Assembly: GCF_023375815.1 (NCBI RefSeq)
Contig: NZ_CP067412.1
Span: 1,054,001 to 1,118,000 of the forward strand
DNA length: 64,000 bases
Direction of reading: 5' to 3'
From: Pseudomonas sp. HS6
GTDB taxonomy: Bacteria; Pseudomonadota; Gammaproteobacteria; Pseudomonadales; Pseudomonadaceae
The position numbers and the translations under genes are program-made. Shown one piece after another: positions 40,138-51,867 of the stretch. Under the pieces are notes generated by a model. That model was given only the letters and a program-made list of their open reading frames with translations. It was not told the DNA's origin and did not search any database. Every line of letters starts with the position of its first letter. The stretch's first letter is position 1.

Positions 40138-40366
40138 GTTACCGGATCGTAACAGTGCAAATTTGCCGTGTACAACGGGGATATGTGCATGGGGTGTCTG
40201 CATTTTTGCCTTGACCACAAAATGAAAAATTGTGGCCGGAGCGCCGGCACCTGCTAGGCTGCGCGGCGGTTGCGACGAGCCCGCAAACAGACCTTCGCTT
40301 CAACAGCGTCTGCAACAGAACCCCAGCGTTTTTTCACCAGAGCTCAACGCGCAATGGAGGCGCACC

Positions 40367-40846
40367 ATGTCGATAACAAGGTATTCAACAGGCAGACTGA
40401 TCGTTGTGTTGCTACTGCTGCTGACGGTTATCAATGTCGCAGCGTGGGCGTTTGTCCTGCGTGGCGGGTTTTCCAGGGCGTATGGCATGGAAATGATCAG
40501 GACCAAAGAACCCTTGCTGATCGCGGGGCATGGCGATGATGAAAGCTATTACGTGCTGCCCGTCAGCACGACGCTCTATTACGACAAAAGCTACCCCGAA
40601 GGTTTTAGTCGTTACATGGTCTTTTTCAATCACAAGGGTTTTATCGCCGGCGATCCCGTGCCGATGAAGCCCGAGTATGGAGGATCATTGATTGATCCTC
40701 GCTGGTTGTCGAATGTCGATGCCGATGCGTTGAAAGACATATTCAAGCGTTTCCCTCTCTCGAAAAAAGACGTCGCCGCAGCTATCAAAGCCAACGGAGT
40801 TACCAAAGAGGATTTGATGGATATCATCCGGTCGATGCCGGATTGA
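40367..40846 (+). CDS. hypothetical protein with one N-terminal membrane helix
   Basis: This 159-residue protein has one hydrophobic helix at about residues 10-30 (GRLIVVLLLLLTVINVAAWA) and a mostly soluble, probably periplasmic remainder with a C-terminal acidic/basic helix pair. I recognise no family. GGAGG six bases before the ATG is a strong ribosome site, so it is very likely a real gene; the longer upstream frame is not needed. Codon use is somewhat AT-richer than that of its neighbours. It converges on the HPP gene. Confidence 0.7.
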   Translation: MSITRYSTGRLIVVLLLLLTVINVAAWAFVLRGGFSRAYGMEMIRTKEPLLIAGHGDDESYYVLPVSTTLYYDKSYPEGFSRYMVFFNHKGFIAGDPVPMKPEYGGSLIDPRWLSNVDADALKDIFKRFPLSKKDVAAAIKANGVTKEDLMDIIRSMPD

Positions 40847-40879: not shown

Positions 40880-41566
40880 TCAGCTGAACACTTGGCCAAT
40901 GCTTCGCCGCTTCGCATGCAATTCACTGGCATGAATCAACTGCTCCAGATCTTCCGGTGTGACATCAATGAACGCCTCCATATCCGCCAGTGCCAATTTC
41001 AGATCCTCGGCCGTGATGGACTGAATATCGACCGGTGCCACGGCCGGCGCCGGTTCGGCGGGACGTTTCGGGTAACGGATCCGAGTCAGGTTGTTGTAGG
41101 CCAGTGCAGCGAGCAGCAGGCAGGCGGCGCTGAGCATTACCGGTTCCAGGGCTTTCCAGTCCATGGCGATGGTCATCGGATCGGCCAGCACCATTGTCAA
41201 TGCGACGGCGCCGGCTGGTGGGTGCAGGCAGCGCAGCCAGCACATCAATATCAGCGCCATGCCCGCCGCCAGGCACGCGCTGCCCAGGGTTCGGCCGAGG
41301 ACGTGGGCCACCAGCAACGCGACCACGCCGGCACACAGATAGCCGCCGATGATCGACCACGGCTGGGCGAGGGCGCCGGAGGATACGGCAAACAGCAGCA
41401 CCGCCGAGGCGCCCAACGGGCCGATCAGGTGGTAGGCGACTTCGATGCCGAACACCTGACTGCACGCCCACACACTGAACAACGTGCCCAGCGCCATGCC
41501 GATGGCGGCGCGGCTCCATTCAGTGGGGCGGGTGTTGATGGCGGCGGGCAACCAGCGAGCGAGCAT
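40880..41566 (-). CDS. HPP family membrane protein
   Basis: This 228-residue protein has an N-terminal hydrophobic domain with four to five helices containing the HPP signature (LRCLHPPAGAVALTMVLADP) and a cytoplasmic C-terminal tail. HPP proteins in other organisms have been linked to nitrite transport in plastids and cyanobacteria; the role in Pseudomonas is not established. The ATG at 41566 follows AGAGGA. It starts just 33 bases after a strong terminator of the upstream direction. Confidence 0.85.
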   Translation of the reverse strand: MLARWLPAAINTRPTEWSRAAIGMALGTLFSVWACSQVFGIEVAYHLIGPLGASAVLLFAVSSGALAQPWSIIGGYLCAGVVALLVAHVLGRTLGSACLAAGMALILMCWLRCLHPPAGAVALTMVLADPMTIAMDWKALEPVMLSAACLLLAALAYNNLTRIRYPKRPAEPAPAVAPVDIQSITAEDLKLALADMEAFIDVTPEDLEQLIHASELHAKRRSIGQVFS

Positions 41567-41598
41567 GAAGTAGCGATCCTCTTGGGGAAACTGAAGGC

Positions 41599-41635
41599 AA
41601 AAAAAAGGACTTGTCCGTCGATCCGGAAAGTCCTT
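41599..41635 (-). terminator. rho-independent terminator between the MFS and HPP genes
   Basis: On the minus strand AGGACTT pairs with AAGTCCT, with a second inner pairing TCCG/CGGA, and a run of eight Ts follows. It is the clearest intrinsic terminator in the window. It ends transcripts from the MFS gene (stop at 41726) or from a possible short transcript starting in between. Confidence 0.9.
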
Positions 41636-41725
41636 CGAAGTGTTCCAACTATTGGGGGAGGAACGCGCACAGTGTGCCAAGCAATCTCGATGCTGACAAA
41701 TTCATATAAATGCATCTTCAATGCA

Positions 41726-42904
41726 TTATTTATGAAGTAAAGCCACTCGCCGTCCGCTCATGAAGCACAGGAAACCGCCCATCGCGGTCAGCGCGCTGAG
41801 GGCGTAGAACATGGTCGGTGCTGGCGTGTGCATCAGCAGGAAACCGCAGATCACCGGGCTTAGCGCGCCGCCCAACGCCGCGAGGTTCTGCGCGCCGTAA
41901 TAACTGCCGCGCAATTCTTCCGGGGCCAGGGTGTCGACGAACAGGAATTCCGACGGATAAATGATCATCTCGCCGAGGGTGAAGATGAACATTGCGATGC
42001 ACCAACTCACCAGGCTGTCGGCCAGACTGAAACCGATCAGGCCGAGAATGAACAGACTGGTGCCGGCGGCGATCCAGTAGCGCAGTTTTTCCCGGTTGAG
42101 GAAGCGGCCGATCTGGTATTGCAGCAGGATCACTGCGATGGCGTTGCAGGCGAGCAGGGCGGCCATGGTTTGCAGGGCGCGCTGCGAGTCTTCGACCACC
42201 AACAGGTATTGGGACAGGTACAGCGTAAATCGGCCGTGGACCACGGTGCTGAGCAGACAGCCGCAGGTGAACATGATCAGCGTGCGGTCGTTTTTCAGGG
42301 TGACCAGGGTTTTCAGGAAGCTTTGCGGCTGGCCGATGGCGGCGACCGGGCTGGCGTCCCTGGGAATCCCTATCATCAGGAAGATGCTGCCGAAAGCGAT
42401 ACCGGCGGCTATCAGGAACGGCGCAATCGGGTACACCCCGGCGATCACCACTCCCAGCATCGGGCCGGTGGCGTAGCCGATGTTGGTCAGGGTGTAGCGC
42501 AGGGAAAACGCCTTGGCCCGCTGGCCCATGGGCAGGTTTTCACTGAGGATCGCCTTGGAACCGATCAGGAACAACGCCGAGGCGGTTTCGGTGATGACCA
42601 GGGTTGCGGTCGTCAGGTACAGGTCTTTGGCGAAGGTCAGCAACACGAAACCGATGGAACTGGACAGCATGGCGAGGATCAGCAACCGGCGCTTCTCGAG
42701 TCGGTCGATGATGTAGCCGCCGTACAGCGCGAGCAGGGTGGCGATAAACACCGCGATGCCCAGCAACAACCCGACGTCCTGTTGGTTGAGGCCGAGCTTG
42801 TTGCTCAAGAACAGTGTGAGCAAAGGACTGGTGATGGCGCGGCTGACGACGATGGTCAGCGAAACGATCATCAGGCGGCGGATAACGAGCGAGTAGGTGG
42901 CCAC
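41726..42904 (-). CDS. MFS transporter, last gene of the lyase operon
   Basis: This 392-residue major facilitator has about twelve helices and the loop motif GGYIIDRLEKRRLL after helix 2. It resembles drug-type (MdtH-like) exporters, but substrate is unknown. The start seems to be GTG at 42904 without a clear ribosome site, 16 bases after the MmgE/PrpD-type gene, so coupled translation is likely. As part of this operon it may export a product or import a second substrate. Confidence 0.85.
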   Translation of the reverse strand: MATYSLVIRRLMIVSLTIVVSRAITSPLLTLFLSNKLGLNQQDVGLLLGIAVFIATLLALYGGYIIDRLEKRRLLILAMLSSSIGFVLLTFAKDLYLTTATLVITETASALFLIGSKAILSENLPMGQRAKAFSLRYTLTNIGYATGPMLGVVIAGVYPIAPFLIAAGIAFGSIFLMIGIPRDASPVAAIGQPQSFLKTLVTLKNDRTLIMFTCGCLLSTVVHGRFTLYLSQYLLVVEDSQRALQTMAALLACNAIAVILLQYQIGRFLNREKLRYWIAAGTSLFILGLIGFSLADSLVSWCIAMFIFTLGEMIIYPSEFLFVDTLAPEELRGSYYGAQNLAALGGALSPVICGFLLMHTPAPTMFYALSALTAMGGFLCFMSGRRVALLHK

Positions 42905-42920
42905 GGAAAATCAAATGTCC

Positions 42921-44273
42921 TTATTCGGTTAACAGGTGCTCAAGATCGCGCACGGAATCCAGCGTTTGCAGTTGCTGCAACTGTGCCAGCAGCCGTTCAG
43001 CCTTGGCTGCTGAACTCACGCGCAACGCCAGACTGAAAAACTTCTCCTCCAGCGCCGCCTCGCTCAGCGGATTGCCCGGCGCGCCCAGCGGCACCTCGAC
43101 ACACAGGCTCGCCTGACGCCCGTCGCGGGTTCGAACAATAACCACCGGCTCGCCATCCTCCGACAGACGCTCATCCACTTCAAGGCGAATGCGCGTCAGC
43201 CAATGAGCAATGCGCGGATCGTTGCGCGGCTGTTCATCGTAAGCCTCGAGCCGACAGTGCCCGTGCACCAGTCGCGCGGCGAGGGCGTAGGGTAGGCTCA
43301 TCTGCGCAGCGGCCAGACTTTGGATGTCGCGGCCACCACACATGTCGAGCAGAAAACCGCACAGATTCACCTGGACGTCTTCCACCTGATCGGCGCCGAC
43401 CTGCAATTGCTCCAGCAACAAGCCGAGCGCATCGATCGCCGAGTGGGTGCCACGGCAGGCGGCGTAGGGTTTGATCGAGCAGCGCGCGAGTTTCCATACC
43501 CGTCCCAACTCGGCGTCCAATGCATCCGGTTGCGCGCTACCCGGCGCGAGGGTCTTGAGAAATCCACCCCAGACATCATCGAACAACACCGACGGCCCGC
43601 TGACGCCTTCGCGTGCAAAACGCGCCGCGAGCAGACCACCTTCGGCCGCACGGCCGCTGTGCAGTTTCTTGCTTTGCGAGCCGTCATGGATGAACGCCCA
43701 CAACCCGCCGCTGAAACTGCCGGCAATGCCCAGCGCCGACACGGTTTGCGCTGCATCCAGGGCAAAGATCCGCGCACAGGCCGCTGCCGCGCCGAACACG
43801 CCGCAGGTGGCGGTGGAATGCCAACCGGCGCCGTTGTGCGCCGAATAGCTGCCGCAGGCTTCCAGCACCCTCCGGCCGATTTCGTAGCCGATCACTACCG
43901 CCGTGATGAACTCGCGACCGTCCACCGGCCGATCCACCAGTGACAGCGCCGCCATCACCGCCGGCAGCACCACCGCGCCGGAATGATCGCAACCGCCGGT
44001 GTCGTCCAGTTCCAGCGCATGGGCGGCGATGCCGTTGAGCAACGCCGCGTGCCCCGCACCGACGCGCAGTGATGAACCCCAGACCAGTGCGGTGCCCGGC
44101 TCTGCACCGAATACCTGCCGCGCCTGAAGCGCCACCGCACTATCGGCCCCGGCCAGCACTGCACCGAAGGTATCGAGAATGTGCCGCTTGGCCTGTTCCA
44201 CCAACGCCGGGGGCAGATCTTCAAAGCGGGTTTCGACGCAAAACTGCGCCAGCCGCTGCATGCGCTGGGTCAT
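42921..44273 (-). CDS. MmgE/PrpD family protein (possible epimerase)
   Basis: This 450-residue protein matches the MmgE/PrpD fold along its length, with HALELDDTGGCDHSGAVVLP, NGAGWHSTATCGVFGAAAAC and KPYAACRGTHSAIDA, the conserved His/Lys pocket segments of the family. The family holds 2-methylcitrate dehydratase, cis-aconitate decarboxylase and iminodisuccinate epimerase. It lacks propionate-pathway neighbours (no prpB/C), so methylcitrate dehydration is unlikely. Its ATG overlaps the upstream stop (ATGA). An epimerase or dehydratase for an N-substituted dicarboxylate is my inference. Confidence 0.85.
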   Translation of the reverse strand: MTQRMQRLAQFCVETRFEDLPPALVEQAKRHILDTFGAVLAGADSAVALQARQVFGAEPGTALVWGSSLRVGAGHAALLNGIAAHALELDDTGGCDHSGAVVLPAVMAALSLVDRPVDGREFITAVVIGYEIGRRVLEACGSYSAHNGAGWHSTATCGVFGAAAACARIFALDAAQTVSALGIAGSFSGGLWAFIHDGSQSKKLHSGRAAEGGLLAARFAREGVSGPSVLFDDVWGGFLKTLAPGSAQPDALDAELGRVWKLARCSIKPYAACRGTHSAIDALGLLLEQLQVGADQVEDVQVNLCGFLLDMCGGRDIQSLAAAQMSLPYALAARLVHGHCRLEAYDEQPRNDPRIAHWLTRIRLEVDERLSEDGEPVVIVRTRDGRQASLCVEVPLGAPGNPLSEAALEEKFFSLALRVSSAAKAERLLAQLQQLQTLDSVRDLEHLLTE

Positions 44274-45157
44274 ACAAGGTAGTCCCGATAATGGCGCTCA
44301 TACACCGACGCCGGGTGATCCTGCGCAACCGGAGCCGCCGATTGCACCCACCATTGCGCAACTTCGGCGCCGGTGGCGATCCACACGTCGTCATGCTGCT
44401 GAATGCCTTGCAGCAATTCCCGCAGCACACCGATGCGCCCCGGCGTGGCGATGATTTCCGGGTGCAGCCGCAGCACGTAGCACAGGCCGAAGCGGTGGAA
44501 CCCGGCGAAGTCCATTTGCAGGTTACCGAGGGTGTGGCTGTAGGAGGCGATCCGCGATTGCGCTGGCGGCACGGCCGGGCTCAGGTTGAAGGCGAAGTAG
44601 GGTTCGTCTTCCAGCTCGTAATGCAGCGGCAACTCGACCACTTCGGGGGCGGTCGGGTGCAAGAACGGCAGGTCATCGCCACGCCATGAGGAAGACCAGT
44701 GAATGCCGTGAGCTTTCAAGGCTTCGATGAATCCCGGCGCGCCGTTGCCTGCCGGAATCCGGAAACCGGTTGGACGCACGCCGGTCAATATTTTCAGCGC
44801 TGCACAGCCCTTGGCGACTTCCGCGCTTTGCGCCGCCAGATCCAGCGTGTCGTAATCCTGATGGCGGTAACCGGCGCACGCGATTTCATGGCCGTCAGCC
44901 TGTATCGCGGCGATGTGCTGCGGATTTTCCTCGGCGACGATGCCGGGCACGAACCAGCTGCTGCGCACCCCGAGTTCCTTGAACAGGCCGAGCAAACGCT
45001 CGACACCCCGTTGCGTGCCGTAGCGCCACACCGAGAGCGTCTTGTCACGCCCGGCGACTTCCGGGGCCTGGGTGAGGATGCCGTGGATGTCGTTGTAATC
45101 GACGGTCAGCACCACCGCGCAACGCTTGCCGGCGGGCCAAAGGTTGGAGTCAGCCAT
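44270..45157 (-). CDS. NodB/CE4-fold hydrolase with altered metal site
   Basis: This 295-residue polysaccharide-deacetylase-family protein is close to the H. pylori PgdA / PuuE-type branch, whose members often act on small amides rather than polysaccharides. Aligned with the neighbouring paralogue, the catalytic Asp is kept (Asp20 in LTVDYND), but the second Asp becomes Asn22 and the first metal His becomes Ala95 (HEIACAGYRHQ); His99 remains. There is no signal peptide, so it acts in the cytoplasm. It overlaps both neighbours (8 and 4 bases). Confidence 0.85.
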   Translation of the reverse strand: MADSNLWPAGKRCAVVLTVDYNDIHGILTQAPEVAGRDKTLSVWRYGTQRGVERLLGLFKELGVRSSWFVPGIVAEENPQHIAAIQADGHEIACAGYRHQDYDTLDLAAQSAEVAKGCAALKILTGVRPTGFRIPAGNGAPGFIEALKAHGIHWSSSWRGDDLPFLHPTAPEVVELPLHYELEDEPYFAFNLSPAVPPAQSRIASYSHTLGNLQMDFAGFHRFGLCYVLRLHPEIIATPGRIGVLRELLQGIQQHDDVWIATGAEVAQWWVQSAAPVAQDHPASVYERHYRDYLV

Positions 45158-45995
45158 GGTGATGCTCCTTCAGCCACCAGCGAGCGACGTCACGGCAGGT
45201 GGCGAACCACACGTCATCGCGCTGGCGCATGTGTTCGAAGAGTTTCTCCAGCAACAGGATGCGCCCCGGTTTGCCGGTGATTTTCGGGTGGAACAGAGTG
45301 GTCAGGCACAGGCCTTCGTCCATCGCGCCGTCGTACTCGCGTTGCCAGTTGTCGAGGGTCAGTTCATAACTGGCGGTGCGGTCGAGCCCGGACGGGAAGT
45401 TCGGTGCGCGGGTGTAGGCGAGGGAGGCGTAGTCGTCCATTTCCCAGCGGCCGGGGATCTCCACCAGCGGCGTATCGTGGCCGGGGACGTTGACCAGATA
45501 CGGGCGGTCGTCGCCGCGCATGCTGCTGGAATAGATAACGCCGTTGTCGGCCAGCATCGCCGGGGTTTCGGCGCGCCAATCACCGGACGGGGTTCGAAAA
45601 CCCTCGGCGCGGATGTGCAGGTATTGCCAGAAAACGTCGCGGGACTTGTTCATCACGGCCTGCTGCTGGTCCAGCGTCAGGGCGTAGAAGGATTCGTGCT
45701 TGTAGCCGTGGTAGGCGACTTCATGGCCGCGTTCGACAATGGCCTGGCATTGTTTCGGCCAGTTTTCCACGACCAACGCGGGGACGAAGAAGGTGGTCGG
45801 GATCTTGAAGGTGTCGAGCAGGTCGAGCAGGCGTGGCAAGGCGCGATACGGGCCGTAGCCGCCGAAGCCGAAGTATTCCGGTTTGTGCCAGATCGAACCG
45901 TTGAGCATCGCATCGCCGGTCGGGCCGTCGAGGTCGAAGGCCAGGGCGAGGCAGGCTTTGTGCTGGTCGGGCCAGGTGGGTTGCAAGGAGGACAT
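45150..45995 (-). CDS. NodB/CE4-fold hydrolase (PuuE/PgdA-like)
   Basis: This 281-residue cytoplasmic member of the polysaccharide deacetylase family has a full metal-site pattern: Asp21 and Asp23 (LAFDLDGPTG), His96 and His100 (HEVAYHGYKHESF). The absence of a signal peptide and the operon with amino-acid transport genes point to an amidohydrolase acting on an imported small molecule, as in PuuE-type allantoinase. Its 3' end overlaps the next, altered paralogue by eight bases, suggesting that they are made together. Confidence 0.87.
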   Translation of the reverse strand: MSSLQPTWPDQHKACLALAFDLDGPTGDAMLNGSIWHKPEYFGFGGYGPYRALPRLLDLLDTFKIPTTFFVPALVVENWPKQCQAIVERGHEVAYHGYKHESFYALTLDQQQAVMNKSRDVFWQYLHIRAEGFRTPSGDWRAETPAMLADNGVIYSSSMRGDDRPYLVNVPGHDTPLVEIPGRWEMDDYASLAYTRAPNFPSGLDRTASYELTLDNWQREYDGAMDEGLCLTTLFHPKITGKPGRILLLEKLFEHMRQRDDVWFATCRDVARWWLKEHHHG

Positions 45996-46021
45996 TAAGG
46001 GCGCTCGAGCTATTCATGAAA

Positions 46022-46048
46022 CAGCGCCGACCGGTTGAGTCGGCGCTG
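46022..46048 (-). terminator. intercistronic hairpin after the solute-binding protein gene
   Basis: A perfect ten-base-pair stem (CAGCGCCGAC / GTCGGCGCTG) with a seven-base loop starts seven bases after the stop codon of the binding-protein gene and is followed by only TTTC. It looks like the partial terminator/stabiliser commonly seen after such genes, allowing more binding protein than downstream enzymes. Confidence 0.7.
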
Positions 46049-46054
46049 ACCGGA

Positions 46055-46879
46055 TTACTTGCCGGCGTTGATGGTCACTTCCTTGATCGCACCCAGCTCC
46101 AGATCCCACTTCTTCAAAATCGCGTTATAGCTGCCGTCATCCACCATGCTCTGCAACGCCACTTTCACCGCTTCACTCAGCTCAGGCTTCTTCTTGCTCA
46201 CACCCAGCCCGGTGAACTGCACGGAGATCGGCTGGCCGACCGTCTTGTACATGTCCTTTTCCTGGGTCTTGAGGTACGACAGGGTTTCGCTGCCCTGCAT
46301 CGCTGCATCAATACGGCTCTGACGCAGTTGGGCGCGGGCGTCGGCCGAGCCTTCGGTGCCGATCACGTTGATCGCAGGTTTGCCTGCGGCTTCACAGTGT
46401 TCCTTACTCCACGCGGCGATTTCCGCCGGGAACGTGGTGCGGCGGCTGGTGCCGACTTTCTTGCCGCACAGGTCGGTGATTTCGTTGGTCGCGGTGTTCT
46501 TCTGCAAGGTGTAGAACTGCGGGCCGCTGGTGAAGTAGTCGACGAAGGTCACGCTGGCCTGACGCTCGGCGGTGTCGGTCATGCCCGACAGCACGATGTC
46601 GACGCGGTCGGTGGTCAGGGCGTTGATCATTTGCTCGAAGCCGGTTTCCTGCCACTTGATCTTGATCCCGAGGCGCTCGGCCAGGGCGTTGCCCAGGTCG
46701 TAGTCCAGACCGGTGAGCTTGTTGGTGGCCGGGTCCTTGAAATCCATCGGCGGATAGTTGGGCATGATCGCGACGACGATCTCGCCTTTTTCCTTGATGC
46801 CGGCCGGCAATTCGGCGGCGAAGCTGACGCTGGAAGCCATCAGGCCTGCGAGTACTGCTGGGATAACGAAGTTCTTCAT
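46055..46879 (-). CDS. polar amino-acid ABC transporter substrate-binding protein
   Basis: This 274-residue periplasmic binding protein (SBP_bac_3) has a signal peptide (cleavage near VSFAAELP), the ligand-pocket start GEIVVAIMPNYPPMDFKD, and SGMTDTAERQASVTFVDYFT. It captures the substrate for the permease and ATPase encoded upstream. The family binds amino acids and opine-like derivatives; the ligand here is not known. Confidence 0.93.
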   Translation of the reverse strand: MKNFVIPAVLAGLMASSVSFAAELPAGIKEKGEIVVAIMPNYPPMDFKDPATNKLTGLDYDLGNALAERLGIKIKWQETGFEQMINALTTDRVDIVLSGMTDTAERQASVTFVDYFTSGPQFYTLQKNTATNEITDLCGKKVGTSRRTTFPAEIAAWSKEHCEAAGKPAINVIGTEGSADARAQLRQSRIDAAMQGSETLSYLKTQEKDMYKTVGQPISVQFTGLGVSKKKPELSEAVKVALQSMVDDGSYNAILKKWDLELGAIKEVTINAGK

Positions 46880-46918
46880 GGACGTTCTCTTATGAGTGTT
46901 GTGAAGGCCAAAGGGGCC

Positions 46919-47683
46919 TCAGGTTCGAACGGCAGAAATGAAGCTTTGGGTGCGCGGGTTTTGCGGACTTATTAGTATTTCTTCGGGGCTTCCAGCCTCC
47001 ACGATCTGCCCGCCGTCCATGAACACCATGCGGTTGGAAACCTCCCGGGCGAAGCCCAGTTCATGGGTGACGACGATCATGGTCATGCCGGTTTGCGCCA
47101 GATCGCGCATCACCGACAGCACCTCACCGACCAGTTCCGGGTCGAGTGCCGAAGTGGGTTCATCGAACAGCATCAGCTTGGGGCGCATGGCCAGGGCGCG
47201 GGCGATCGCCACCCGTTGCTGCTGACCGCCCGACAATTCAATCGGGTAGCTGTCGCGTTTGTCGGCAAGGCCAACCCGGGCCAGCAGTTCCAGGGCTTCT
47301 TCGTGCGCCTCCTTGGGTGAACGCTTGAGCACCTGGCACGGGCCTTCGATGATGTTTTGCAGCACAGTCATGTGCGGAAACAGGTTGAAACGCTGGAACA
47401 CCATGCCGGTGGCCAGGCGCTGACGGGCAATCTGCGACTCGTTGAGTTCGTGCAGCTTGTGCCCGACGACGCGGTAGCCCACCAGTTCGCCATCGACCCA
47501 CAGACCACCCTTGTCGATCTTTTCCAGCTGATTGACGCAGCGCAGCAGGGTGCTCTTGCCCGAGCCGGACGGGCCGATGATGCAAAGCACTTCGCCTTGC
47601 TCGACCTCGATGTTGATGTCCTTGAGCGCGTGGTACTGGTCGTAATATTTGTTCAGGGCCACAGCCTTGACGATGTTTCTCAT
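46919..47683 (-). CDS. amino-acid ABC transporter ATP-binding protein
   Basis: This 254-residue ATPase of the GlnQ/HisP type has Walker [10 protein letters not shown], signature LSGGQQQR, Walker [15 protein letters not shown] and the switch His in VVTHELGF. The ATG at 47683 has GGAGAA a few bases upstream. It energises uptake through the permease encoded 20 bases upstream. Confidence 0.94.
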
Positions 47684-47703
47684 GTTCGATTCTCCTGCGC
47701 GGC

Positions 47704-48582
47704 TTACGAGCGCTTGCCGGCGCCGCGAGCGAAACGACGCTCCAGACGGCTTTGACCAAAGGACAGGACGGTGACGGTGGCCAGGTACCAGATACCGGCG
47801 ACGATCAGCAGCTCCATGACCCGGGCGTTGGCGTAGTAGATGTTCTGGGCGTTGTAGAGCAGTTCCGAGTACTGGATGACGCTCGCCAGCGAGGTCATTT
47901 TCACCATGCCGATGAATTCGTTGCCGACCGGCGGAATGATGATGCGCATGGCCTGCGGCAGGATGATCCGGCGCAGCGCTTGCAGGCGCGGCATGCCGAT
48001 CGACTTGGCCGCTTCGTACTGACCGGTGTCCACCGACAGCAGACCGGCACGCACCACTTCGGCGGTGTAGGCGCCCTGGTTGATGCTCAAGCCGAGCAGG
48101 GCGGCCACGAACGGGGTCATCAGGCTCACGGTGTCGAGTTCGAACAGGCCGGGAATGCCGATGGTGGGAAAAATCAGCGCCAGGTTGAACCACAACAGCA
48201 GTTGCAGAATCAGCGGCGTACCGCGAAACAGCCAGGTGTAGGTCAGCGCCACGTAGCGCAGGATCGGGTTGGCCGACATGCGCATGATCGCGGTGATCAC
48301 CCCGAACACGATGCCCAGCGCCATGGCCAGCACGGCCATGATGATCGTGTTGAGCAGGCCCCACATGATCGCTTCGGAGGTCAGGAACTGGCCGATGTAC
48401 GACCATTCGATCTTGCCTTCAGCAAAGGCCCGCACCAGGCCAATGATCGCGATCACAATCAACGTGGCGAAGAAGATTCGCCCGTAATAGCGCCGTGGCA
48501 CATGCTGGTACTGGGTGATATCGAACTGGTTTTCCGCCAGTTTGCGCTCCGCCTGGAGTCGTTCTGCCTGAGTCTGGCTCAT
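47704..48582 (-). CDS. amino-acid ABC transporter permease
   Basis: This 292-residue permease of the His/Glu/Gln/Arg/opine family has a hydrophilic N-terminal tail of about 35 residues, then four to five helices, and the EAA loop ([20 protein letters not shown]). A single permease gene is present, so it probably forms a homodimer. GGAG seven bases before 48582 marks the start; the frame is open eleven codons further. Confidence 0.93.
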
Positions 48583-48643
48583 GGTGTTTCTCCGTACACT
48601 GTACTTATCGATCAACCCCCTCCTGGTGGGAGGGGGACCCGGC

Positions 48644-50071
48644 TTAGAGGCGGAAGCCCTGGTAGTTTTCGGTCCACTGTTGCTGCGCAGCGAGGGCGGT
48701 TTTCAGGCGGCCGATCTGTTCGCGCACTTGTTGCGGCGCGGTTCCGCCCCAACCGCTGCGGGCAGCGATGGCGGCTTCCAGGGTCAGGCTGTCGCGCACG
48801 TCCGCCGTCAGGCGCGGGTCGATCTCGGCCAGCAGCGCCGGCGAGGCTTCCCACAATTCGAGGTTGTGTTTTTCGCAGGCCTGGACCAGCGCACCGGTGA
48901 TTTCGTGGGCTTCCTTGAACGGCACGCCGCGCACCGCCAGCCAGTCGGCAACTTCGGTGGCGAGGGTGAAACCCAGCGGTGCCTGGCGCCGCAGTTCCTC
49001 GACGTTGACGGTCATGGTCGCGACCATCCCGGCCATCGCCGGCAGCACCAGCAGCAGGGTGTCGACGCTGTCGAGCACGCCGTTCTTGTCTTCGCTCAGG
49101 TCGCGGTTGTACGACAGCGGCAGGGATTTGAGGGTCGAGAGCAGACCGGTCAGGTTGCCGATCAGACGGCCAGCCTTGCCCCGGGCCAGTTCGGCGATGT
49201 CCGGGTTTTTCTTCTGCGGCATGATCGAACTGCCGGTGGCGTAGGCGTCGTCGAGATCGACCCAGCGGAACTGGCGCGACGACCACAGGCAGAACTCTTC
49301 GGCCAGACGCGAGATGTTGATCCCGAGCATGCTGGCGATGAACAGGAATTCGGCGACGTGATCGCGGCTGGCCACGGCGTCGATGGAGTTTTCGCAGACC
49401 CCGGCGTAACCCATCTCTTTGGCCGATTGCTGCGGCTGGCGAGCAATCGCGGAACCGGCCATGGCCGCTGCACCGAGGGGGGACAGCGAAGTGCGGGCGT
49501 CCCAGTCCACCAAGCGCTGCACGTCACGCAGCATCGATTGCGAATGGGCCAGCAGGTGATGGGCGAACACGATTGGCTGCGCCTGCTGCAGGTGGGTGAA
49601 ACCCGGGCAGATGCTTTCGATGTGCTGCTCGGCTTGATCCACCAGCGCCTGTTGCAGCGCCAGGACTTCGACCGCCAAGGTGCGGACGTGATCACGCAGG
49701 AACAGGCGCAGGTCGTTGGCAGTCTGGTCGTTGCGTGAGCGGCCGGCGCGCAGCTTGCCGCCCAATGCGCCGAGGCGTTCGGTCAGCAGGCGCTCGATAA
49801 AGGTATGAACGTCTTCGTCGTCCAGCGTCGGAGCAATGCCCCCGGCAGCGAAATCGGCACCGATGCCGTCCAGAGCTTCGATCATCGTGCGGGTTTCCTG
49901 CTCATCCAGCAGGCCGGCACGTAGCAGTTCCCCGGCGTGGGCTTTGGAACCGGCCAGATCGTATGGCGTCAGGCGGAAATAGCGCTCGGGGCAACGGGAC
50001 AGGGCCGCCAGGGCTGCGGACGGGCCGCTTTTGAAACGGGCACCCCAGAGACGGTCGGTGGTTTGAGACAT
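48644..50071 (-). CDS. argininosuccinate-lyase-like protein of the aspartase/fumarase superfamily
   Basis: This 475-residue lyase has the superfamily signature GSSIMPQKKNPD (280-291, catalytic Ser) and the acid-base His160 in GFTHLQQAQP, so it should release fumarate or a related product from an N-substituted aspartate. It differs from typical ArgH where argininosuccinate is bound: KLRAGRSRNDQ instead of KLHTGRSRNDQ (106-116), and no SxxFD motif near residues 25-33. It heads the transport operon and is not with arginine-synthesis genes. ArgH relatives include EDDS lyase, so an aminopolycarboxylate substrate is plausible. Annotation pipelines would call it argH; I do not assign that symbol. 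Confidence 0.85.
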   Translation of the reverse strand: MSQTTDRLWGARFKSGPSAALAALSRCPERYFRLTPYDLAGSKAHAGELLRAGLLDEQETRTMIEALDGIGADFAAGGIAPTLDDEDVHTFIERLLTERLGALGGKLRAGRSRNDQTANDLRLFLRDHVRTLAVEVLALQQALVDQAEQHIESICPGFTHLQQAQPIVFAHHLLAHSQSMLRDVQRLVDWDARTSLSPLGAAAMAGSAIARQPQQSAKEMGYAGVCENSIDAVASRDHVAEFLFIASMLGINISRLAEEFCLWSSRQFRWVDLDDAYATGSSIMPQKKNPDIAELARGKAGRLIGNLTGLLSTLKSLPLSYNRDLSEDKNGVLDSVDTLLLVLPAMAGMVATMTVNVEELRRQAPLGFTLATEVADWLAVRGVPFKEAHEITGALVQACEKHNLELWEASPALLAEIDPRLTADVRDSLTLEAAIAARSGWGGTAPQQVREQIGRLKTALAAQQQWTENYQGFRL

Positions 50072-50381
50072 TTGTTGTTTTCCTCGTCGGTAACGCGAAC
50101 TGAAATCGGTGTGCATGGCCTGTCGAACACGCTGAAAAGTCAGCGGACAGAATCTGAGAACAGAGTCAGGCCAAAGCAGTTTTCAAGAGGGCAGTTGCAA
50201 AGAGACAAGAGCTGATCGAAGTGTCAGCTTTTAATGTTTGGCGATCAGTGAGTTGGCACTGATGTTCGGGATTTTTTGGCGGTTGCCAAGGCTGGTTTTC
50301 TGTGATCATTATTATTAGCCGGCGATGTTTTTGTTGTTGGACACAGATTGTTGAACATTGCGCCAGAGGTAAATCAGCATT
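50072..50381. promoter_or_regulatory. divergent promoter region of the lyase operon and its LysR gene
   Basis: This 310-base gap holds no gene and is AT-richer than the surroundings. Two near-identical decamers, TTGTTGGACA (50334-50343) and TTGTTGAACA (50348-50357), lie in direct repeat 14 bases apart, 25 to 48 bases before the LysR start. They could be regulator sites, but this is weak evidence. LysR-type regulators usually act from such a divergent gap. Confidence 0.5.
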
Positions 50382-51347
50382 ATGGAAACCCCACTTTCCA
50401 ATTCCGGAAACCCGCCGCTGAAAACGGCTCACCGAGCACCGCTGGCCCTCAGCGGACTGGATTTCAAACTGCTCAAGGTGTTCAAGGCCGTGGTCGAGGC
50501 AGGAGGCTTCAGCGCCGCGCAAAACGAGCTGAACGTGGGCCTTGCGGCCATCAGCAAGCAGATCTCCGACCTGGAAATCCGCATCGGCATGCGCTTGTGT
50601 ACCCGGGGTCGCGAGGGGTTTCACCTGACCGAGGAAGGGCGTCTGGTGTATCAGGCGTCGATTGATTTGTTCGCGTCGGTCGACAACTTCCGGGATCGGC
50701 TTAGTTCAGCGCAGAACGAACTTATTGGCGATCTTGGTGTGGGCGTTATTGATAATACGATCAGCGACCTTAATTCACCGTTAGTTGCGGCGCTTAAGAG
50801 AATAAATGAAGAGTCGCCGAAAGTAAGATTTCAACTTCAGGCCACCCAGCTGGATGAGGTGGAAAGAGGAGTTGTAGAAGGGCGCCTGGTGGCGGGAATA
50901 GTACCGGTCTATCAGAAACGCGAAGAGTTTGATTATTACCCGTTATATGAAGAACGTTCGGAGGTTTACTGCGCTGTCGGCCATCCGTTGTTCGAAATGC
51001 CTGAAGCAAAAATGAACAGCGACGTGCTGCAGGATTACGAGTGCATCAACCACCGCTACGCGATCCATCGCGACAAGCTCAACTTTGCCCGCTACGACAG
51101 TTTTTCCGCCTCGGCGACCCAGGTCGAAGCCGTGGCGCTGCTGATCAAGACCGGCCGTTTCGTAGGCTTCCTGCCCCGGCATTACGCGGCCACGCTGGTG
51201 GCGGCGGGGCAGTTTCGTGCAGTGCTGCCGGAGCGAATCAACATCGCCACGCCATTCAATCTGATCCTGCGCCACAACACCGTGCGCAGTCCGTTGGTGA
51301 AGGCATTCGCTCAGGCGTTGGGCGTCGATCTGAAGGTGCCGCTGTAA
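50382..51347 (+). CDS. LysR-family transcriptional regulator
   Basis: This 321-residue regulator has an N-terminal extension of about 22 residues, then the winged helix (LKVFKAVVEAGGFSAAQNEL, LAAISKQISDLEIRIGMRLC) and a two-lobe effector domain. It is divergent from the lyase-transport operon and so is its likely regulator. The middle third (about 50740-50960) is visibly AT-richer than neighbouring genes. Its stop lies one base from the end of the convergent GNAT gene. Confidence 0.92.
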   Translation: METPLSNSGNPPLKTAHRAPLALSGLDFKLLKVFKAVVEAGGFSAAQNELNVGLAAISKQISDLEIRIGMRLCTRGREGFHLTEEGRLVYQASIDLFASVDNFRDRLSSAQNELIGDLGVGVIDNTISDLNSPLVAALKRINEESPKVRFQLQATQLDEVERGVVEGRLVAGIVPVYQKREEFDYYPLYEERSEVYCAVGHPLFEMPEAKMNSDVLQDYECINHRYAIHRDKLNFARYDSFSASATQVEAVALLIKTGRFVGFLPRHYAATLVAAGQFRAVLPERINIATPFNLILRHNTVRSPLVKAFAQALGVDLKVPL

Positions 51348-51348
51348 T

Positions 51349-51867
51349 TCAGCCGAGCATCAATCGCATCGCGCAACGTCGCTCACCGGGCAAACCGTGG
51401 GCGATTACGTCGTTGAGTACCTCGATCAAACGCGGCCCGGCATCCACTTCGTTCAATGGCACAAAACCCATGCGTTGATAGAACGGCGCATTCCACGGCA
51501 GATCGCGGAAAGTGGTCAACGTGATCGCCTCAAGTTGCCGCCGTCGCGCATGTTCAATCACGCCCAACAGCAACTTGCGACCGATGCCCCGGCCCTGAAA
51601 GTCTTGACTGACGGACAGTTCTTCGACGTGCAACTGGTTGTCGATTTCAACCGCCCTTAAAAAACCTGCAAGTTGTCCGACAGCATTTTCTGCGGCCCAT
51701 ACATGTCCCTGCTCGATGGCCTGTAAATGCTGCGCGGCGTCGGGTACATCGCTGTCGGCGAGCCAGGCCAGGTTCGGGTCTAGGCGAAACAGCTCGGCGG
51801 CCGAGCGTTCAATGGCGGGGAGGGTGGCCGCGTCAGCAGGCCGGGCGAGGCGAATAATGAATGTCAT
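51349..51867 (-). CDS. GNAT family N-acetyltransferase
   Basis: This 172-residue acetyltransferase has the acetyl-CoA-binding loop QDFQGRGIGRKLLLGVIEHA at about 91-110, preceded by the core strand VEELSVS. The acceptor substrate is unknown. It converges on the LysR gene with a single base between the stop codons, so the transcripts must overlap. Confidence 0.88.
   Translation of the reverse strand: MTFIIRLARPADAATLPAIERSAAELFRLDPNLAWLADSDVPDAAQHLQAIEQGHVWAAENAVGQLAGFLRAVEIDNQLHVEELSVSQDFQGRGIGRKLLLGVIEHARRRQLEAITLTTFRDLPWNAPFYQRMGFVPLNEVDAGPRLIEVLNDVIAHGLPGERRCAMRLMLG

Follow-up and report, generated by a model that had tools for sequence, protein, structure and literature searches.

The window analysed here is a stretch of 64,000 nucleotides of Pseudomonas sp. 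HS6 (contig NZ_CP067412.1), from a genome of 6.55 Mb on a single contig; when named genomes were searched with the MmgE/PrpD protein, its nearest named relatives proved to be Pseudomonas, among them P. paraglycinae and P. koreensis. It contains a candidate catabolic operon that joins an ArgH-derived lyase, an ATP-binding cassette (ABC) importer, two CE4-fold proteins (CE4a and CE4b), an MmgE/PrpD protein (PrpD below) and an MFS transporter (Table 1). Each of the nine genes has an intact reading frame at the expected position and, as the initial annotation had it, eight minus-strand genes stand opposite a LysR gene, with three pairs overlapping by 4-8 bases; the intergenic distances in operon order are 28, -4, 39, 59, -8, -4 and 16 bases. 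The lyase reading frame can be read from 50116, and the start at 50071 agrees with orthologues such as P0032. Elsewhere the genome encodes another ArgH, which shares 43% identity with the window lyase, and one more MmgE/PrpD protein, distinct from that of the operon.

Table 1. Genes of the operon and the divergent regulator gene, in window coordinates.
Product	Position	Strand	Family evidence
ArgH-derived lyase, clade I, 475 aa	48644..50071	-	Lyase_1+ASL_C2; TIGR00838 523 bits
ABC permease, polar amino-acid type	47704..48615	-	BPD_transp_1, PF00528 81.5 bits
ABC ATPase	46919..47707	-	ABC_tran, PF00005 121 bits; 4-base overlap with permease
Solute-binding protein, family 3	46055..46879	-	SBP_bac_3, PF00497 114 bits
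CE4a, CE4/NodB-fold hydrolase, imidase-like	45150..45995	-	Polysacc_deac_1, PF01522 67 bits
CE4b, CE4a paralogue, degenerate metal site	44270..45157	-	Polysacc_deac_1, PF01522 56 bits
MmgE/PrpD protein, proposed isomerase of succinyl carbon	42921..44273	-	MmgE_PrpD N and C domains (Pfam)
MFS transporter, YdeE-like, accessory	41726..42904	-	MFS_1, PF07690 136 bits
LysR regulator, divergent	50382..51347	+	PF00126+PF03466

Conservation and modularity of the operon

A search of named genomes (genome_contigs) with the window PrpD returned 203 relatives; the best 80 were fetched, and 72 of these loci, in which over 6.5 kb separates PrpD from the upstream end, were eligible for a count of gene order. 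All 72, from Pseudomonas and Enterobacterales, carry lyase, permease, ATPase, solute-binding protein, CE4a, CE4b and PrpD in this order on one strand, with LysR divergent in 71, and the lyase, MmgE/PrpD and two CE4 genes, whose joint occurrence the initial annotation had proposed to look for, are thus co-located across genomes. In Rahnella, Rouxiella, Erwinia, Pantoea and the syringae group, the lyase is down to 66-75% identity and PrpD to 56-62%. The MFS gene is present within 2.5 kb in 54 of the 77 loci with enough flank, was seen in the closer Pseudomonas loci only, and was not detected in the fetched loci with a PrpD of about 60% identity; because of this absence it is not counted as core. 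Of 200 genomes sampled from the phylum, 3 have a PrpD of the operon clade (E<=1e-90), and each of the 3 carries the operon. Relatives outside Pseudomonas are found in Enterobacterales, Burkholderia and Hyphomicrobiales, including pSymB of Sinorhizobium meliloti, and Pseudomonas is therefore too narrow a frame for the combination.

Of 199 Pseudomonas genomes, 60 have the lyase (E<=1e-150); 36 of these 60, and no others, also have CE4a (E<=1e-90), and the two genes lie 3.4-4.4 kb apart on the same contig in 34 of the 36 and on different contigs in the other two. Pseudomonas lyase loci without CE4a number 24, of which 22 were fetched, and 15 of these 22 have LysR divergent from lyase, permease, ATPase, solute-binding protein and MFS genes. 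Because of such loci, the lyase is the constant part in Pseudomonas, and CE4a-CE4b-PrpD is a loadable, separable cassette. One genome (G249) has one full and one minimal copy. P. fluorescens FW300-N2E3 is one of the strains with the operon (L048). In the lyase tree the minimal loci fall inside groups of full ones, a pattern that points to loss.

Ancestry and active site of the lyase

The window lyase passes the ArgH equivalog model TIGR00838 (523 bits, cut-off 279.5), and its best match among solved relatives is Mycobacterium tuberculosis ArgH (6iem, 495 bits), compared with 209 bits for ethylenediaminedisuccinate (EDDS) lyase (6g3d). In a 63-row tree, which has no EDDS lyase row, 24 operon lyases form one clade (100/99) beside M. 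tuberculosis ArgH and apart from the proteobacterial ArgH rows; the M. tuberculosis row and that of locus L122 have long branches, and their placement is unsure. Because of the difference between 495 and 209 bits, we regard the lyase, on its sequence, as an ArgH offshoot for which EDDS lyase offers a mechanistic analogy only. The initial annotation had named an ArgH-like lyase and set it beside EDDS lyase: predicted fumarate release by a lyase distinct from the cell's other ArgH is supported, but the enzyme descends from ArgH and not from EDDS lyase.

Residues for catalysis and for the fumarate half of the substrate (RSRN 111-114, T159/H160 and GSSIMPQKKN 280-289) do not vary across the 78 operon lyases. 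Two other positions differ from ArgH, the window lyase having Y31 where ArgH has Asp and S326 where ArgH has Gln. In duck delta-2 crystallin numbering these ArgH residues are Asp33 and Gln328, which we take to contact the arginine half of the ArgH substrate. Both are kept in all 36 reference rows (ArgH presumed by sequence), whereas in the 78 operon lyases the first column is always Tyr or Phe and the second never Gln, and the same signature is seen in 20 of 20 reduced loci. Since a bulky aromatic replaces Asp, this suggests that the arginine-tail pocket is filled or altered. The lyase is thus like ArgH in sequence family, fumarate half-site and catalytic residues, and unlike it in the two lost residues, in a separate clade whose nearest sampled row is M. 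tuberculosis ArgH, and in being an extra copy.

Such an ancestry could reflect argininosuccinate salvage, in which argininosuccinate, its spontaneous cyclic anhydrides and its epimers would be taken up, CE4 would open the anhydride, PrpD would epimerise, and the lyase would yield arginine and fumarate. Arginase and ornithine cyclodeaminase genes, above curated cut-offs, near the Microvirga (L238) and Paracoccus (L233) relatives would fit this, as would type II loci (L122, L235-L237; Ensifer adhaerens, Rhizobium sp. 11515TR, Ochrobactrum quorumnocens and genome G051), where the same cassette accompanies another ArgH-like lyase, 39-41% identical, with Asp and Gln retained. We nevertheless consider salvage unlikely, as the clade I lyases lack the two residues found in every reference row, the binding protein has Gly in a column presumed to supply Asp to the amino group (see below), and another ArgH is already present in the genome. 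Furthermore, the available text of one study places S. meliloti argH1 among the arginine genes that cost fitness when mutated in the wild type (PMC5929573); as this wild type should carry pSymB argH2, argH2 would not make argH1 dispensable, although the argument is indirect. The argH-like gene of pSymB is probably not for arginine synthesis. In the 63-row tree, the long-branched type II row of G051 stands outside clade I. Separate recruitment of the two lyase types, if it took place, would make fumarate release the likely point of the pathway.

All named entries among the best 120 lyase matches listed are called argininosuccinate lyase or argH1. Since operon-clade lyases are labelled ArgH despite the loss of two ArgH residues, arginine-pathway annotation and gap-filling in carrier genomes may be wrong. 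On S. meliloti pSymB (L240, 10409-18377), an argH-like gene 62% identical to the window lyase, with the same signature residues, lies beside importer, MmgE/PrpD and CE4 genes. Elsewhere in the phylum, an ArgH-like lyase gene amid sugar-type ABC genes (L224, 1378-2967) is about equidistant from ArgH and EDDS lyase.

The importer, CE4 and MmgE/PrpD proteins

Uptake by a polar amino-acid-type importer, as first annotated, agrees with the ABC families assigned. The binding protein retains the Arg of the SGMTD..R motif and has Gly196 in 120 of 120 related rows. In five printed alignments with solved amino-acid binders, this column holds Asp in three, and in two an acidic residue stands there or in the adjacent column; presumably the acidic residue contacts the amino group, and the ligand of the window protein is probably one that lacks a free alpha-amino group. 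Close permease relatives (E<=1e-85, 299 genomes sampled) occupy nine places in eight genomes; at six the cluster contains a lyase and at the other three an N-carbamoyl-amino-acid hydrolase, which is D-type in L125 and L226 and of M20 type in L227 (TIGR01879, 371 bits). The MFS transporter scores 227 bits against NF007472 (YdeE), under the cut-off of 582.

CE4a has a complete metal site (D23/H96/H100) that is the same in all 19 rows compared, including the CE4 of a hydantoin-type locus. In CE4b, position 95 is His in 0 of 15 rows and position 99 in 8 of 15; Paracoccus CE4b keeps the first His and not the second. The amide or imide opening initially ascribed to both proteins is consequently plausible for CE4a, with its full site, but compromised for CE4b, whose metal site is lost. 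The best PDB relatives of CE4a are 3rxz (144.5 bits) and 3qbu (98.9 bits), the latter resembled by HxnM, a cyclic-imide hydrolase 64% identical to P. putida imidase, according to the available text of PMC9304392. CE4a is like the CE4/NodB imidases (P. putida YZ-26 imidase and HxnM) and PuuE in family and metal site, and the window proteins differ from these in lacking the metal ligands in CE4b and in scoring far under the PuuE cut-off; PuuE allantoinase was rejected as an identity for the pair (TIGR03212, 84.0 and 90.8 bits, cut-off 424.6). A haloarchaeal CE4 relative (38%) is encoded on a Natronosalvus rutilus plasmid (L234, 1-8816) near genes for hydantoinase/oxoprolinase A and B and an ArgE/DapE-type deacylase.

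For the MmgE/PrpD family, the available text of PMC12290011 names six carboxylate-binding residues, gives all known substrates a common 1,4-dicarboxylate backbone, and describes one Pseudomonas member as a demonstrated isomerase. Window PrpD has invariant counterparts of all six residues, matched by motif and by alignment with iminodisuccinate epimerase and not directly to the enzyme of that report. Iminodisuccinate epimerase itself uses two bases, H99 and Y145 (available text of PMC7347537). The catalytic His is kept in window PrpD (H97), while the second-base Tyr is replaced by Asn (N147) in 19 of 19 rows, and the alignment contains a two-residue deletion close to the catalytic His. PrpD thus resembles iminodisuccinate epimerase and (S)-(R)-methylsuccinate isomerase in fold, catalytic His and carboxylate-binding residues, and departs from them in the Asn and the deletion. 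Of the epimerisation initially assigned, the succinate-gripping residues are upheld; because the Tyr base of iminodisuccinate epimerase is lost, we infer the reaction and describe PrpD as a proposed isomerase. The same replacement bears on the initial idea of an aminopolycarboxylate substrate (iminodisuccinate, EDDS or aspergillomarasmine-like), for which PrpD would be an iminodisuccinate-type epimerase and the lyase would give an amino acid and fumarate. The retained His and carboxylate ligands notwithstanding, this idea now seems improbable, as the Tyr base is gone, the lyase is much nearer ArgH than EDDS lyase, and the links to CE4, carbamoylase and ureohydrolase would be left unaccounted for.

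Substrate class and proposed pathway

Relatives of the importer and CE4 proteins are also found in other company. In genus g109 of the same phylum, four of four fetched loci (L123, L124, L125 and L226) join a D-carbamoylase to an importer of this kind and to a CE4 protein, which in L226 matches only in part, with a PF01177 racemase in three of the four, and a PF01177 protein is also present in the Chelatococcus lyase locus. The CE4 proteins of the S. meliloti and Chelatococcus lyase loci are 51% and 62% identical, respectively, to that of a D-carbamoylase/hydantoin-racemase locus. This presence of importer and CE4 kin beside either a carbamoylase or a lyase is the strongest pointer to the substrate class, and because of it we favour N-succino compounds of ureido or guanidino type. 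Compared with D-hydantoin loci (racemase, hydantoinase and D-carbamoylase), with which the close importer and CE4 are common, the window operon has the lyase in the place of the carbamoylase and PrpD in that of the racemase, and no dihydropyrimidinase-type hydantoinase among its nine genes. Nine of ten Erwinia/Pantoea-type loci (the tenth is incomplete), as well as Rhizobium (L239) and Microvirga (L238), encode an agmatinase-family ureohydrolase close to the operon, and these neighbours, with the arginases noted above, favour guanidino over purely ureido substrates. Hydantoin-type stretches lie at 7.0-12.7 kb of L123 and 4.2-9.4 kb of L125, and also in L124 and L226; the CE4 of these loci may be a new hydantoinase type.

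Our preferred reading, to which we give a probability of about 0.5, is that the operon breaks down an N-succino compound of ureido or guanidino type, along with the cyclic form, by ring opening, isomerisation and beta-elimination; the remaining probability is shared by salvage of argininosuccinate, S-succino thiols, aminopolycarboxylates and other possibilities. The substrate would be an aspartate with its nitrogen inside a ureido or guanidino (amide-like) group, together with the cyclised form. The importer, assigned by family, would take the compound up; CE4a, perhaps with CE4b, would hydrolyse a hydantoin-, iminohydantoin- or imide-type ring, or an amide, to give the open-chain N-substituted aspartate; PrpD, with its conserved binding residues, would grip the 1,4-dicarboxylate and invert or otherwise act on the succinyl C-alpha; and the lyase, in which the catalytic and fumarate residues are intact, would beta-eliminate fumarate and leave a urea- or guanidine-type product. 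Fumarate would pass to the tricarboxylic acid cycle, and the other product to housekeeping enzymes, to the ureohydrolase in some relatives, or to export, perhaps via the MFS transporter. A more specific version, which we offer tentatively and think rather doubtful, would combine a CE4-type hydantoinase or iminohydantoinase, MmgE/PrpD stereochemistry and a new N-carbamoyl(or amidino)-aspartate lyase yielding fumarate and urea or guanidine, the lyase being swapped with D-carbamoylase and PrpD with hydantoin racemase across lineages. If this version were true, the pathway would include S. meliloti argH2 on pSymB and many of the genes now annotated as argininosuccinate lyase.

Several points weigh against the preferred reading. 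Linear N-carbamoyl-L-aspartate is a pyrimidine precursor, so that a lyase acting on it would be risky. Pfam searches found no carbamoylase, hydantoin racemase or ureohydrolase among the nine genes of the window operon, and the CE4 proteins of the carbamoylase loci are only 28-31% identical to window CE4a and CE4b. PrpD lacks the second base, and the contacts ascribed to the Asp33, Gln328 and Gly196 columns are presumed ones. Urease was negative in 8 of 18 genomes, all of them Enterobacterales-type carriers, and present in the other ten, so in those eight urea would be no nitrogen source via urease. The parts of the operon also occur singly: in 7 of the 22 fetched Pseudomonas loci without CE4a the lyase is alone, with neither cassette nor importer, and in Paracoccus seriniphilus (L233) the CE4a-CE4b-PrpD cassette has no lyase beside it. 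The solitary clade I lyases (L176-L182) have the signature residues intact, with importer, CE4a and PrpD not nearby.

In comparing the operon with described systems, we take YxeQ to be an MmgE/PrpD protein. The nearest such system is that of the 2-succino-cysteine lyase (2SL) yxe/scm loci, which, in the available text of PMC9706529, share with the operon an ABC importer, a fumarate-releasing class I lyase and YxeQ, whose function is given there as unknown; in both, the breakdown enzyme is exchanged between lineages. The 2SL yxe loci have an acetyltransferase and the YxeP deacetylase, whereas the window operon has two CE4-fold proteins and an ArgH-clade lyase. Against the definition of a yxe/scm 2-succino-cysteine locus given in the same text (at least three of YxeK, L, MNO, P and Q clustered), ABC and MmgE/PrpD genes are present, known by family and not as YxeMNO or YxeQ orthologues, and the nine genes include neither a monooxygenase nor an M20 deacetylase nor an acetyltransferase. 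We found no account of the version with CE4 and an ArgH-derived lyase in the literature searched; the initial statement that the combination lacked a description thus holds for this version, but has to be qualified by the related architecture of the 2SL-type loci.

The likeness to these loci suggests a further explanation, namely that the operon is a Gram-negative counterpart in which a class I lyase would free fumarate from an S-(2-succino) thiol. The yxe-2SL loci combine such a lyase with ABC importer, acetyltransferase, deacetylase and YxeQ (PMC9706529, available text), and five Hyphomicrobiales loci, two of them from S. meliloti, have a GNAT together with lyase, ABC, PrpD and CE4 genes. 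There is, however, no M20 deacetylase and no acetyltransferase inside the window operon, the neighbouring GNAT has no match in the Hyphomicrobiales loci, which carry other GNATs (tblastn, 1e-7), ArgH relatives are C-N lyases, and the carbamoylase/hydantoin link would be left unexplained; we think little of its chances. The GNAT acetyltransferase gene of the window (51349-51867) lies tail to tail with the LysR gene and is present in 20 fetched Pseudomonas loci.

On the preferred reading, that of ureido- or guanidino-type N-succino compounds, the substrate class is narrow and can be tested with few compounds. The operon provides a setting for three matters so far little understood: the role of MmgE/PrpD proteins encoded next to amino-acid importers, the compounds opened by CE4 proteins of the small-molecule kind, and the reason for the pSymB argH-like gene in rhizobia.

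Beyond the operon in the window, a 174-aa open reading frame with zero Pfam matches (40322-40846, plus strand) adjoins a TM_HPP membrane protein gene (40880-41680, minus strand). In L118 (11650-14712) and eight other Erwinia/Pantoea-type loci, the ureohydrolase, a GldA-like dehydrogenase and a second LysR are encoded near the operon, with a GldA homologue next to the operon in L062, L084, L075 and L087 as well.

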